DNA of 41,669 nt, from positions 1 through 41,669 of the IMG/VR virus record IMGVR_UViG_3300042507_003861. The stretch is one strand, 5' to 3'. Source of the DNA: a virus. Below the pieces are notes generated by a model. It was not told the DNA's origin. It was given only the letters and a program-made list of their open reading frames with translations, and searched no databases. This document shows, one piece after another, positions 9,610 to 38,147 of this stretch (the stretch's first letter is position 1; every line of letters starts with the position of its first letter). A program made the position numbers and the translations under genes.

Positions 9610-10482
9610 TTAGAGTCCGAAATTGGACGAGCTGTATTCAGGGAATAGGCTGGTAGATTGCGGCCCTATTTCAGAGGTATTTGTTCTCGGAAAAGAATAA
9701 AGCTCAGGATCGTTCTGGGGATTGTAAGACGATGGCGGTCGATATCCCCCTGGCAGTTGAGACATCAACGCACTCGAAATTCCATATTGCGACAGCGCGC
9801 CGCCAACCTGACCACCAAATCCAGTGACAGCACTCTGCAACGCTTGCTGCATCGGAGAAGCGGAAGCAGCGGCCTGAGCGGCTTGCAAATCGCGTCCATA
9901 CTGAAGCTGTTGCTGCTGCTGCATGAATCCAATTCTTTGGCTCGGTGTAATGAACATGCTGCTAACCGAGAACGGTTGCGCCATACCCACCGCACGCTGC
10001 TGCTGAATGAAACTCTGAGCCTGAGCAAGACCTTGATTCTGGAGCTGCATCCCAGTCAACCCCAAGTCGCGAGCGGTTAGCGCACGACCGAATCCAGATG
10101 CGCCGCCAAATCCTCCAGACAAAGCTCGTCCAGCGGCAGAGCGTTGAACCTGAGCAGAAACCTCTGGTGAGATTTCGCCTCGCAAGGCCGACCCAATGTT
10201 CTTGCCAGCCTGCTGAATCAACTGGTCATAGCCAGGAATCGCGCGACGAAGCTGCGCCTCAAGCTGAGACTGCTCAGCGGCGGTCGTCTTGGTGGCCAAC
10301 TCAGTTGCAGGCTCAAGCGATGCGATATTCTGCTGAATCGCCTTTTGCTGTTCTCCAGCAAAATCAATCGGCTTCAGCTCAGGCACCTTTGGCTTGCGTC
10401 CGCCGAAAAGCCCACCGAGCAAACTACCGGCAGCGGAGATTCCCGCTCCACCCAAAATTGCAGCTCCAAGTCCTATTGCCAT
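9610..10482 (-). CDS. Internal virion-type protein with hydrophobic Gly/Ala N-terminus, 290 residues
   Basis: The first 28 residues are a Gly/Ala-rich hydrophobic segment (MAIGLGAAILGGAGISAAGS, then LLGGLFGG) followed by RKPKVPELKP. The body is Gln-rich helix with repeated QQQ runs, and the C-terminus turns Pro/Ser/Tyr-rich. This composition is typical of small podovirus ejection proteins with a membrane-active N-terminus. AAAGGA lies about 7 bases before the ATG, one of the few good Shine-Dalgarno sites here. It is the first of three tandem internal-protein genes downstream of the tail-tube A-like gene. Confidence 0.6.
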   Translation of the reverse strand: MAIGLGAAILGGAGISAAGSLLGGLFGGRKPKVPELKPIDFAGEQQKAIQQNIASLEPATELATKTTAAEQSQLEAQLRRAIPGYDQLIQQAGKNIGSALRGEISPEVSAQVQRSAAGRALSGGFGGASGFGRALTARDLGLTGMQLQNQGLAQAQSFIQQQRAVGMAQPFSVSSMFITPSQRIGFMQQQQQLQYGRDLQAAQAAASASPMQQALQSAVTGFGGQVGGALSQYGISSALMSQLPGGYRPPSSYNPQNDPELYSFPRTNTSEIGPQSTSLFPEYSSSNFGL

Positions 10483-10498
10483 AAATTATCCTTTTGGT

Positions 10499-11470
10499 TC
10501 AGAACCATTGCGAGAATCCACCGCCATTCAATCCTACACCGACCATGCGTATCGTCGCGACAGCGTCGCCCAGATACTGCATCGTCTGCTCCTGCACAGC
10601 TTGAACAGCTTTGGCTTCGTAGGCCACTGCTTCCTGAATCAAATCGTTCTCTTCCTTTCGAATGGCCATGACCATCAGCTTGATGGCATCAGCGCACGGA
10701 GGAATAAGGTAGTCATTGACGCTCGTCGCGTTGATGTGGCGCATCTTCGCCATCACAGTCACCGGCTTATCCTCGTCGTTGTTACAACGATCTGTCAGGT
10801 AACTGCGACGATACTGCGGCAAAGTTTCATCAGGGTCGTAAACTGCCAGATCCGTTTCCAGAGCGGTCGTCGCATCGTACTCGTACAAACGGCTGACCGT
10901 GTTCGTGGCTTCACGAATGACGCCGGTCAGTTCGATAAATTTCTTGGTAGACTGAACGTACGGCAAAGCGAGCGTCAGCTTTTCTCCGTCAATCCACGCG
11001 CCACCGGACTGCGTTCGAATCCACTGACCGTTCTGATCAACACCTTGCAGCGTGATGGTTTTGCCGACATCCGAAGCGTCGCCAGGGTAGACTCGAAGAT
11101 AGCTGTTAGTACCGCCAGACATGTCGCGGTAAGAAACCACAGTACCACGATCAATAAGCTGCTTCCCAACGCACACTTGATTGCCATTGAGAAGTCCATA
11201 TCCGGTTTCCTGAAACTCGAACCATTGATTGCGAACCGTTCCGACTCCGCAGCAGTCAGCTACAGCCTCGATGGTTTCGATCTGTCGCGGCCAAGTGATG
11301 CAGCCACCTACGGTGTGGATCGTGAAGCGTCCGTACGCTCCAGCCCACAACCCTTTGTGTAGAAGCCTTCGACACGCCTGATTGATGTAATCATAAACGC
11401 GCGCATCATCGACACATACTCCGATGACACGGGCGATTGTGGAGCGAATGTCCTGAACGATTAGCTTCAT
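10499..11470 (-). CDS. Tail tubular protein A / head-to-tail adaptor-like protein, 323 residues
   Basis: The N-terminus has a helical DDARVYDYINQACRRLLHKG segment followed by W and a beta-rich middle. Later parts include ITLQGVDQNGQWIRT, a FIELTGVIREATNTVSRLYE strand-turn unit, and a C-terminal helix with IPPCADAIKLMVMAIRKEEN. I recognise this pattern from podovirus connector proteins of the T7 gp11 type that join the portal to the nozzle. It overlaps the collar-domain gene by four bases and lies in the same operon as the gp12-like gene. The family call rests on memory of the motif pattern and on gene order. Confidence 0.65.
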   Translation of the reverse strand: MKLIVQDIRSTIARVIGVCVDDARVYDYINQACRRLLHKGLWAGAYGRFTIHTVGGCITWPRQIETIEAVADCCGVGTVRNQWFEFQETGYGLLNGNQVCVGKQLIDRGTVVSYRDMSGGTNSYLRVYPGDASDVGKTITLQGVDQNGQWIRTQSGGAWIDGEKLTLALPYVQSTKKFIELTGVIREATNTVSRLYEYDATTALETDLAVYDPDETLPQYRRSYLTDRCNNDEDKPVTVMAKMRHINATSVNDYLIPPCADAIKLMVMAIRKEENDLIQEAVAYEAKAVQAVQEQTMQYLGDAVATIRMVGVGLNGGGFSQWF

Positions 11471-29358: not shown

Positions 29359-30606
29359 TTAGCTGCAAATGATCTGGGTCAGAGCGCCTGAACACCGACG
29401 GAAGATGATGGTCATTCCTTGGTTGGTGAAAACAGGCTCCGGGGCATGAATGAACTCAGCGTAGTGCTGACCCTTCTTCTCCAGCGGATCGGCGCAATCC
29501 ACATCGAGCTTGTAGGCACCAGTCACCCACTGCCACTCGCCCATGTAGTTGGTCGGCATCCAGCTCAAATCACCAACACGGTTCACAGGACGCACAATGT
29601 GCGACTTGAAGACATACGGGGTGACGACAAACGCAGCCTCGAACGGAGCGGTCGTCCAGCTCGGGTTGACGCTGAACACAGTACCTTTCGTACCGTTAGC
29701 ACTGGTAAACGGCTGAACCAGCGTGTACTTGCCGCCAGCGTAGGTGAAGCGGGGCGGGAACAGATTCGGCACATGCCGGAAGTTCTTGATGACCCGATTC
29801 GCGCCAATGCGCTTGAGCAACTCCGCGCCAGCGCCACTGCCCTGATCAGCGAACCGCACATCGTCGCGGAACGCGGGGTTGTTCTGAGCGATGCGCTGCG
29901 AAGCCTCCAGACCGATGTAGAGCGGGAACACCGGGCCGTCGCTGGAGTAGCTGATGAAGCCAGAGCTATCAGGATTGGTAGCGCCGTTGCGGATCAGCGT
30001 GGCGGCGGCGACATCAAGCATCTCCTGAGTCAGCTCGGAGGTGGACTGATTCAGCGCCTGACCAGCGGAGCCGGTCTGAATCCAAGGCAGCTCATTCACA
30101 CCGGCAACAATCGTCTCAACCTGAGTGAAGGACGAGTCGGCCACAGCCTTGATGGCGTACTTGGCGAACATGTTCTGGTAACGGGTTTCCCAAGAACGCT
30201 GAGCGCGGATGGAGAGCTTCTCAAGGTACACGCGCAAGAACGCCTCGACGCGATGGTCGAAGGTCAGATCGTCCTTACACAAGAGCGGACCTTTGAGGGC
30301 GAAACGCTCAGGACTCCAGGTAACGGCATTATAGCCGACCGGAACGTCATTGTAGGTGACATCGCAAGCGCCACCGTTATCGCCGGGATTGCCGCTGGCG
30401 AGCGTGATGGCCGACCACTCCTCAGCCGCAGTCGGCTCGATGGAGGTGGTGGTGAACGAGGTCTGGGTCAGACCAGTACCCTGAGGATACTCGCCGCGCT
30501 CAATCATGTTGAGCCACATCGAGCGGTACGAGGCGCGTTTATAAACGTCCTGCGCGAGCGACTCAGTAGCCACCGCGAAGGCGTTGAAGACATTAGGACA
30601 AGCCAT
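29359..30606 (-). CDS. Major capsid protein
   Basis: This 415-residue protein lacks signal and membrane segments and is rich in the mixed alpha/beta content of HK97-fold capsids. Typical features include an N-terminal helical SLAQDVYKRASYRSMWLNMI segment, a long central stretch with FDHRVEAFLRVYLEKLSIRA, and a late VVTPYVFKSHIVRPV...MPTNYMGEW region as I recall from podovirus major head proteins. It has its own strong terminator downstream, as expected for a highly expressed gene. The scaffold gene is convergent and 4 kb away. The stop lies in a 7-bp hairpin (29351-29368). Confidence 0.8.
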   Translation of the reverse strand: MACPNVFNAFAVATESLAQDVYKRASYRSMWLNMIERGEYPQGTGLTQTSFTTTSIEPTAAEEWSAITLASGNPGDNGGACDVTYNDVPVGYNAVTWSPERFALKGPLLCKDDLTFDHRVEAFLRVYLEKLSIRAQRSWETRYQNMFAKYAIKAVADSSFTQVETIVAGVNELPWIQTGSAGQALNQSTSELTQEMLDVAAATLIRNGATNPDSSGFISYSSDGPVFPLYIGLEASQRIAQNNPAFRDDVRFADQGSGAGAELLKRIGANRVIKNFRHVPNLFPPRFTYAGGKYTLVQPFTSANGTKGTVFSVNPSWTTAPFEAAFVVTPYVFKSHIVRPVNRVGDLSWMPTNYMGEWQWVTGAYKLDVDCADPLEKKGQHYAEFIHAPEPVFTNQGMTIIFRRCSGALTQIICS

Positions 30607-30803
30607 GAGATTATGAAATTAAACCGACGTTATCTGCGTTATGGTTGGCCATCCATCCACCACACGGTGGCTGATTATCCAACCTGCTACATGCGGAGTG
30701 TCATTGCCGCTTAGACGGTTTTGCGATGGCTGACCAAGCCTCCGCATTGCTTAAGGTCGTTACGCGCACTGACGCACAAGGGCGACTAAAGTGTCAATCA
30801 CAA

Positions 30804-34982: not shown

Positions 34983-35242
34983 GCCGCAACATCCCGCTCA
35001 GTGAGCTTATAACGACGCTCGAAAGCCTGTCGGACATGATGCAATCGCCTATGCTCAGAGAGGCATCCTATCGACTCGACACTGCCAACAGCGCGCTATG
35101 CTGCCTTGAACACGCGCTTTTCTACGTCCGCATGTATCGGTCAGCCGATAATACAGGCGATGGCGAGAAGCGACGCCAAGAACTCATCGACGATTCGGAA
35201 GCACTCATCAAAATCATCCGCGAGGGAGGGCTGTATCCATGA
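34979..35242 (+). CDS. Small helical protein, 87 residues, unknown
   Basis: It begins in an ATGA overlap with the previous gene and ends in another. It is almost entirely helical (LITTLESLSDMMQSPMLRE, then ANSALCCLEHALFYVRMY) with an acidic C-terminal helix. No domain is recognised. Coupled translation is the main support. Confidence 0.5.
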   Translation: MSRNIPLSELITTLESLSDMMQSPMLREASYRLDTANSALCCLEHALFYVRMYRSADNTGDGEKRRQELIDDSEALIKIIREGGLYP

Positions 35243-35496
35243 ACCGCAATCTATTCGCCCCGCCAATCTTCAAGGTGCAAATATCCGGCGCGATTGGCTG
35301 GAGCGACTTAAAGGAACGGGTCGTTCGATTCGAAACGCTCGAATACACCACGCGCAAGGAGGCGGAAACGACAGCGCGAGAACTGAACCCAGGCGAGTAT
35401 ACTCAAGGTCGGATTCGCGTCGTCCCGGTTGAAGTGCCGGAGGATTATGATGTGTATCCCACCGCAGAAAGAACAAAAGCAAACCATTCACAATGA
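35239..35496 (+). CDS. Small beta-rich protein, 85 residues, unknown
   Basis: Strand-like segments (FKVQISGAIGWSDLKERVVR, then TTARELNPGEYTQGRIRVVP) and a polar tail ending YPTAERTKANHSQ. No family is recognised. It overlaps the previous gene by four bases, and its stop overlaps the start of the 298-residue frame at 35493 as ATGA, as in the rest of this chain. The DNA methyltransferase ATG lies eight bases after its stop. Confidence 0.5.
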   Translation: MNRNLFAPPIFKVQISGAIGWSDLKERVVRFETLEYTTRKEAETTARELNPGEYTQGRIRVVPVEVPEDYDVYPTAERTKANHSQ

Positions 35497-36389
35497 GCGA
35501 TACATGGATACTTCCAAAGCAATTACACACATTGGCCTATGCGCTGGATACGGAGGCATTGAGCTTGGACTCCAGCGAGCAATCCCAAATATGCGCTCAA
35601 TCGCTCTTTGTGAGGTCGAAGCCTTTGCCGTTGCGAACCTGGTTGCGAAAATGGAAGCGGGACAACTGGAGCCAGCACCTGTTTGGCCGAATCTTAAAAC
35701 CTTCCCTTGGGAATCGTTTCGCGGATGCGTGGACATCCTCACTGGCGGATATCCTTGCCAACCCTTTAGCGCGGCAGGAAAGCGACAAGGAGCGGACGAC
35801 CCGAGACATCTCTGGCCATACATCGCAAGGGGAATTCGGATTCTCCAACCAAGGATCTGCTTCTTTGAGAACGTCGAAGGACATATCTCGCTGGGGTTGT
35901 CCGACGTCATCGAAGACCTGGCAGGAATGGGTTACAGAACGACGTGGGGCATATTCTCAGCGTCTGAAGTCGGCGCACCGCACCAGCGCAAGCGGGTGTT
36001 CATCATGGCCGTCTCCAGTGGCTTCAGAGGTACGGCAGGGATTTCAGGATCGTTCACGCGGTATGAAGGGGAGTCAGGAGAGTCTGACGACGGTGGTCGT
36101 AAAGAACTGGCCGACTCCAAATGCTGCGGATTCGTTTCAGGGAGGAACGACGCAAGGCAATCGCAAAGATCCGAACTTGAGCATAGCTGTGCATGGCCAA
36201 GTAGGCCAAATGAACGGCAGCATGGATGGGAGCCGCCGCGAGTTGTATCGTCTGAACGCTCGATGGGTCGAGACATTGATGGGAGTTCCGGTCGGATGGA
36301 CTATGCCGAGCTGTGCGTCACCTGTGACAATCGAACCGACGAACTTCGACTCCTCGGAAACGGTGTTGTCCCGGCAACAGCCGATCTAG
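35493..36389 (+). CDS. Overlapping second frame of the methyltransferase locus, 298 residues
   Basis: This frame starts in an ATGA overlap with the preceding gene, as its upstream neighbours do, and is open for 298 codons while lying inside the methyltransferase gene from 35504, in the +1 frame relative to it. It is not random-looking. It has WPSPVASEVRQGF and NWPTPNAADSFQGG blocks and a C-terminal RLNARWVETLMGVPVGWTMP segment, which resemble blocks in phage cytosine-methyltransferase-related proteins. It begins MSDTWILPKQLHT, a start I recall from other phage proteins. Whether it is translated is not shown by sequence alone; ribosome profiling or conservation would decide. Confidence 0.55.
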   Translation: MSDTWILPKQLHTLAYALDTEALSLDSSEQSQICAQSLFVRSKPLPLRTWLRKWKRDNWSQHLFGRILKPSLGNRFADAWTSSLADILANPLARQESDKERTTRDISGHTSQGEFGFSNQGSASLRTSKDISRWGCPTSSKTWQEWVTERRGAYSQRLKSAHRTSASGCSSWPSPVASEVRQGFQDRSRGMKGSQESLTTVVVKNWPTPNAADSFQGGTTQGNRKDPNLSIAVHGQVGQMNGSMDGSRRELYRLNARWVETLMGVPVGWTMPSCASPVTIEPTNFDSSETVLSRQQPI

Positions 36390-36424
36390 CGTATCGAACA
36401 CTTGCGCGAGAAATCCTCGGATAA
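35504..36424 (+). CDS. dcm: DNA (cytosine-5) methyltransferase, 306 residues
   Basis: The ATG at 35504 gives motif I as IGLCAGYGGIELGL, motif IV as GGYPCQPFSAAGKRQGADD (catalytic Cys 85), motif VI as FFENVEGH (ENV at 122-124) and motif VIII as QRKRVF. The target region is short and includes WPSRPNERQHGWEPPRVV. Motif X is LRLLGNGVVPATADLAY. It methylates cytosine C5 in a short DNA sequence, most likely to protect phage DNA. No restriction enzyme accompanies it. The gene shares 886 bases with another long frame starting at 35493. It follows a translated chain of small early genes. Confidence 0.92.
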   Translation: MDTSKAITHIGLCAGYGGIELGLQRAIPNMRSIALCEVEAFAVANLVAKMEAGQLEPAPVWPNLKTFPWESFRGCVDILTGGYPCQPFSAAGKRQGADDPRHLWPYIARGIRILQPRICFFENVEGHISLGLSDVIEDLAGMGYRTTWGIFSASEVGAPHQRKRVFIMAVSSGFRGTAGISGSFTRYEGESGESDDGGRKELADSKCCGFVSGRNDARQSQRSELEHSCAWPSRPNERQHGWEPPRVVSSERSMGRDIDGSSGRMDYAELCVTCDNRTDELRLLGNGVVPATADLAYRTLAREILG

Positions 36425-37841: not shown

Positions 37842-38147
37842 ATGAAAGTTTATACGGCCAAGGCCACAGCAGCGATGCTTCAAATCTGCACCGAGACGCT
37901 AAGGCGAATCGTTCGCAGTGACGGCATCCAGCACAGGAGAATTGGCCGACGAATCCTTTTCACGGAAGCCGACATCGCGGCGATTCTTGAGAGTCGAGCA
38001 ATGACCGGAGCTGTGAATCCGTACGCAAAGAAGACAAACAAACAACCGCAGACAGAGAATACAACCTATGAGCAACCAAGCAGCAACATTGACGGTGGCA
38101 GTGCCGTCGCAGCCAGCGCCGCAACCTCTGAGTCCAGCCAGTCCTGA
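37842..38147 (+). CDS. Excisionase/MerR-like HTH DNA-binding protein, 101 residues
   Basis: Residues 1-50 form a winged-helix HTH_17-type domain: VYTAKATAAMLQICTETLRR, IVRSDGIQHRRIGRR and ILFTEADIAAILES. Such proteins are recombination directionality factors or regulators. The C-terminal half is low-complexity (Thr, Gln, Asn, Ser, Ala) and overlaps the RecT gene by 80 bases. No integrase is visible, so it may regulate the RecT-RecE operon instead, possibly through the structured element just upstream. This link is inferred from position. Confidence 0.7.
   Translation: MKVYTAKATAAMLQICTETLRRIVRSDGIQHRRIGRRILFTEADIAAILESRAMTGAVNPYAKKTNKQPQTENTTYEQPSSNIDGGSAVAASAATSESSQS

Follow-up and report, generated by a model that had tools for sequence, protein, structure and literature searches.

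M.EcoHK31I and M.EaeI are C5-methyltransferases made of two polypeptides, and in M.EcoHK31I the gene for the large subunit contains that for the small subunit, in another reading frame. The multispecific methyltransferases of the Bacillus phages SPR, phi3T, and H2 are single-frame enzymes. M.EcoHK31I carries motifs I-VIII and X on its large subunit and motif IX on its small subunit, and its recognition domain has been predicted in the large subunit (PMC3404938). The second subunit of M.AquI holds both motifs IX and X (PMC3404938), and C5-methyltransferases of Bacillus phages carry tandem recognition domains (PMC8936443).

Here, we analyze a locus in a 41,669-nucleotide tailed-phage contig from IMG/VR (record IMGVR_UViG_3300042507_003861, referred to in its entirety as the window), which also encodes terminase, tail fibre, primase, RecT-like, exonuclease, SSB, and thymidylate synthase genes. 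As described in the initial annotation, two plus-strand frames share 886 bases; we refer to them as alpha and beta, the latter lying in the +1 frame of the former (Table 1). We consider it very probable, from sequence comparison, that they encode one C5-cytosine DNA methyltransferase of the M.EcoHK31I kind as two polypeptides. The locus is filed as a variant of that kind because motifs I-VIII and X fall on one subunit and motif IX on the other, with recognition assigned to beta as the difference, and its second polypeptide likewise occupies an overlapping alternative frame. Unlike the small subunit of M.EcoHK31I, the phage beta nearly matches alpha in length and has the more upstream start of the two, and recognition-like cassettes, variable in number, are constrained in beta and not, as the M.EcoHK31I prediction would have it, in alpha. 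The separation of a catalytic half from a recognition half resembles M.AquI, but motif X stays in alpha instead of joining motif IX on the second subunit, and the overlap is nearly complete. The SPR, phi3T, and H2 enzymes each have several tandem recognition modules, whereas the putative recognition modules here are read from the other frame and belong to a second protein.

Table 1. Features of the alpha/beta locus (positions in the window)
Feature	Positions	Strand	Evidence
Alpha, C5-methyltransferase large (catalytic) subunit, motifs I-VIII and X, 306 aa	35504..36424	+	PF00145, phrog_363, AF2, Foldseek
Beta, overlapping +1 frame, putative specificity subunit, 298 aa	35493..36389	+	80/80 alpha relatives, phrog_1008, selection and stop tests
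Double start, ATGs 11 nt apart (beta 35493, alpha 35504)	35493..35506	+	Start positions in 62 relatives
Alpha motif IV, GYPCQPFS with catalytic Cys	35747..35770	+	Invariant in 28 aligned relatives
Beta cassette 1, WPSPVASEVRQGFQDRSRGMKGSQESLTTVVVKN	36006..36107	+	Same cassette cluster in 33 relatives, 16 contexts
Alpha residues 175-283, unstructured passenger over beta cassettes and motif IX	36026..36352	+	pLDDT ~31-57; dNN/dSN 1.89 over cassettes
Beta cassette 2, starting WPTPNAADSFQGGTTQGN	36108..36251	+	Same cassette cluster in 12 relatives, 7 contexts
Motif IX in beta frame, RLNARWVETLMGVPVGWT	36249..36302	+	Beta alignment; +1 frame in two other clades; alpha frame in Gordonia-type enzymes
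Motif X in alpha frame, LRLLGNGVVPATA	36344..36382	+	Invariant core; alpha dNN/dSN 0.06

Layout and conservation of the two frames

The beta ATG overlaps the stop of the upstream gene (35239-35496) as ATGA, an arrangement already recognized in the initial annotation. Across 62 scored sequences, it precedes the alpha start by 2, 5, 8, 11, or 14 nt, in the context ATGACATGG in 30 and AATGTGG in 19. A Shine-Dalgarno-like sequence precedes 26 of the 30 starts of the ATGACATGG class; an obvious one was seen neither in the window nor in most of the scored sequences outside this class. A single ribosome landing site may feed both frames. An alpha start at 35447 or 35450, behind GGAGG, was rejected because stops close that stretch in many relatives. 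We found no Rfam element near the locus and recognized no restriction gene among the neighbours scanned. Three relatives of beta were found in cellular genomes, two of them from Verrucomicrobia, which hints at this phylum as the host. Elsewhere in the window, long open frames of the two strands cover almost identical stretches at 10394-11362 (+) and 10499-11470 (-) and at 29419-30714 (+) and 29359-30606 (-); both pairs are likely mechanical.

We drew 80 alpha relatives from IMG/VR at 49 to 97% identity with the alpha protein as the sole query, so the sample is not biased by beta. A beta homologue is present in the same +1 register in all 80. Homologs that keep the methyltransferase and carry stops in the second frame, which the initial annotation had proposed to look for, did not appear among them, and its reading of two genuine protein products was supported, not refuted. 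Over motifs I-VIII of 62 loci, there is no +1 stop in 10,290 codons, where approximately 238 would be expected; +2 stops are, overall, about as frequent as expected. In the Kagunavirus and Paenibacillus-phage clades, +1 stops are present at the start of alpha and cease only once the beta start particular to the clade has been passed. When synonymous codons of alpha are permuted, the longest open run in the +1 frame has a mean of 0.45 of the gene, compared with an observed median of 0.97, and a run as long arose in 33 of 12,800 permutations over 64 relatives. By these counts, the overlap is real and conserved, a product of neither chance nor decay.

Selection along the overlap

Substitutions were compared between pairs of 75 to 98% identity, which are not independent of one another. 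The ratio dNN/dNS sets changes that alter both proteins against those that alter alpha only, and dNN/dSN sets them against those that alter beta only. In the overlap, these ratios are 0.44 (95% interval, 0.38-0.52) and 0.30, respectively, compared with 0.80 and 0.14 in neighbouring genes of the same phages, which show the usual excess at codon position 3. Judged from this codon-position analysis, which the initial annotation had suggested, both frames are under purifying selection, in keeping with its reading of two encoded proteins. In an excisionase-like gene of the window (37842-38147), two close relatives (L087 and L088) differ much at codon positions 1 and 2; L088 has 6, 5, and 2 changes at positions 1 to 3 and an unchanged 100-base 5' flank, and the gene is perhaps under diversifying selection.

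The constraint changes frame along the locus. Alpha (dNN/dSN) and beta (dNN/dNS) give 0.21 and 0.56 over motifs I-VIII, 1.89 and 0.12 over the cassettes, 0.53 and 0.30 in the motif IX region, and 0.06 and 0.60 over motif X, in a test of the window family that used an alpha-frame alignment without a beta-frame pattern. At alpha positions 1, 2, and 3, the cassettes show 0.235, 0.041, and 0.029 substitutions per codon, respectively, which is the signature of a protein encoded in the beta frame. The constrained frame thus runs from alpha (I-VIII) to beta (cassettes and IX) and back to alpha (X), the order of parts in a normal enzyme (I-VIII, recognition and IX, X). The Kagunavirus and Paenibacillus-phage clades repeat this switch, in a test that favours beta over motif IX and the cassettes because the motif IX region was found by a beta-frame pattern and the cassettes were aligned in the beta frame. 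Over the N-terminal half of beta, dNN/dNS (0.54-0.60) is not clearly below the value over motif X in two clades (0.46-0.61), so amino acid constraint on that half is weak. The main support for this half is the absence of stops; this segment of beta is kept open and weakly constrained and perhaps contacts alpha.

Beta could in principle be an untranslated passenger, held open by constraints on alpha, codon usage, or base composition, and in favour of this, the window taken alone reaches no lower than P ~0.008, with runs this long in 159 of 20,000 synonymous-codon permutations. We find this hardly credible, and excluded by the comparative data short of a flaw common to all tests, since stops are avoided in three clades in which +2 stops are, overall, about as frequent as expected, dSN is 0.30 in the overlap compared with 0.55 in neighbouring genes, and the beta frame is constrained where alpha is not. 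The order of constrained frames would also suit a single chain produced by programmed frameshifting, translated in alpha to motif VIII, in beta for the cassettes and motif IX, and in alpha again for motif X. The first of these joins exists as a plain fusion in one phage locus (L331:1501-2546, identical in L332), in which a frame shift unites motifs I-VIII with the cassettes and motif IX, whereas motif X is left in another frame; it is perhaps a real M.AquI-like rearrangement because the same sequence occurs in two metagenome data sets. Such a chain is nonetheless improbable, as it requires two efficient shifts and explains neither why beta is free of stops over all of motifs I-VIII from its own conserved start nor why mycobacteriophages have a separate second open reading frame (ORF).

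Division of the methyltransferase between alpha and beta

Protein searches, as recommended in the initial annotation, assign alpha to PF00145 (9.7e-32) and phrog_363 (3.4e-55) and beta to phrog_1008 (4.5e-27). Alpha had been credited with all C5-methyltransferase motifs, which overstates its content: the PF00145 match covers profile positions 3-164 of 324 only, and alpha holds motifs I-VIII and X without motif IX, which lies in beta. To phrog_1008, alpha matches only at the end that holds motif X (profile 294-319). AlphaFold models alpha with confidence over most of residues 5-174 and over residues 284-305, with an unstructured stretch separating the two, and the best solved Foldseek matches of the model are M.HaeIII and M.HhaI over approximately 170 aligned columns. 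We infer that the middle of alpha is a flexible passenger and that the remainder folds as a catalytic large domain with SAM and the catalytic cysteine.

Beta contains the blocks WPSP, NWPTPNAADS, and RLNARWVETLMGVPVGWT that had been pointed out in it, and the last of these, in its C-terminal part, is among the most conserved in the beta alignment. Motif IX is in this way carried by a second polypeptide, as in enzymes of the M.EcoHK31I type. Gordonia-type enzymes have motif IX (LSAAFAEWMMGLPAG) in the alpha frame approximately 30 residues before motif X, which is where motif IX belongs. Of the 102 scorable loci in the Kagunavirus and Paenibacillus-phage clades, 86 have it in the +1 frame; in 14 of the 102, the pattern was found in no frame, perhaps because it is strict. 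The label of phrog_1008, DNA methyltransferase, hides that beta matches it through the specificity-like part. The initial annotation had offered, as an alternative to two proteins, an ancestral methyltransferase segment shifted out of frame; this alternative is half right, because the segment does belong to a methyltransferase but is maintained and not decaying. Alpha and beta are accordingly not unrelated, because beta carries motif IX and recognition-like modules that alpha lacks.

Motif IX is preceded in beta by tandem cassettes of approximately 25 to 50 residues, most of them starting with WPTPxAxD or similar. Simple segmentation yielded 214 cassettes in 71 clusters from 64 loci, and one cassette recurs at different positions and beside different neighbours. 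Members of the Paenibacillus-type clade (L256, L262, and L265) show recognizable cassettes lost and reordered. The cassettes are shuffled among relatives, as target-recognition modules are, and probably recognize DNA. Homology with gp79 of mycobacteriophage Phelipe, in which LPTP cassettes, motif IX, and motif X follow the ORF for motifs I-VIII in one frame, places them where a C5-methyltransferase has its recognition domain, between motifs VIII and IX. The joined frame of L331 and L332, with motifs I-VIII, cassettes, and motif IX, also speaks for a single enzyme divided between the two frames.

It is very unlikely that beta is instead an unrelated overprinted protein, for example, antirestriction or regulatory, with an accidental likeness to motif IX. 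In favour of such a protein, Pfam and NCBIfam do not recognize beta, PDB sequences gave no match, and AlphaFold of beta alone, with an alignment from 28 relatives, gave no usable model (pLDDT 42), so its small-domain fold is putative. An accident would, however, have to account for a motif IX that in three clades is found in beta instead of alpha, for the same motif in frame before motif X in Gordonia-type enzymes, and for the single frame of cassettes, IX, and X in Phelipe gp79.

Related arrangements and the proposed split enzyme

A same-strand overlap of this length had been presumed rare, but the layout recurs in at least three divergent phage clades and is common in phages. Overlapping pairs have already been annotated without comment on their function, for example, in Kagunavirus K1ind2 and Paenibacillus phage Leyra. 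Our search of open-licence literature found no description of the overlap in phages, which is weak evidence because only open-licence papers were searchable. A DNA search of E. coli genomes gave 68 prophage relatives, and among the 20 matches listed, the sole label is DNA cytosine methyltransferase. Only beta is annotated, as a hypothetical protein, in Synechococcus phage Sc-Yong805-2 (L339:1762-2862), and only alpha in Enterobacter plasmid pTO42E (L338:1648-2577). The genome of Geminisphaera colitermitum TAV2 (L207:3833-5334) contains a complete alpha/beta pair whose beta frame carries several cassettes, probably in a prophage.

Other phages distribute the parts differently. Gordonia-type loci (L004:2341-3372 and L158-L168) have LPTPTASD-like modules in a +1 frame that ends before the alpha-frame motif IX, which looks like a different split of the same parts. 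In Phelipe and Ryadel (L336:1774-2869 and L337:1780-2719), the halves occupy two ORFs that adjoin or partly overlap, the second of which holds the cassettes, IX, and X. The gp80/gp79 pair of Phelipe and the gp8/gp7 pair of Ryadel resemble the M.AquI form, plausibly as an intermediate or alternative state of the same enzyme.

We propose that alpha acts as the catalytic large domain and that beta would supply the small domain in trans, with the recognition modules and motif IX. The two would initiate 2 to 14 nt apart, often behind one ribosome-binding site, and assemble into an active heterodimer in which both are needed. With several cassettes per beta, one enzyme could methylate several sequences, and such methylation may protect phage DNA from host restriction. 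We lean, by a narrow balance, toward a widespread class of split phage methyltransferases in which one to approximately eight recognition modules, arrayed and shufflable, make up the specificity subunit; the cassettes, open in two frames and functional in beta only, would allow targets to be swapped or added with the catalytic gene intact.

Phage and prophage C5-methyltransferases of this class are frequently entered as a single gene, so databases omit the part that probably determines the methylated sequence or file it as a hypothetical protein. The locus is also a clear natural example of a gene pair along which the constrained frame changes twice, a good test bed for methods to detect overlapping genes. 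If the proposal is true, predicting the specificity of such enzymes and cloning them would require both frames, and it raises a testable correction to the placement of recognition in EcoHK31I-like enzymes.
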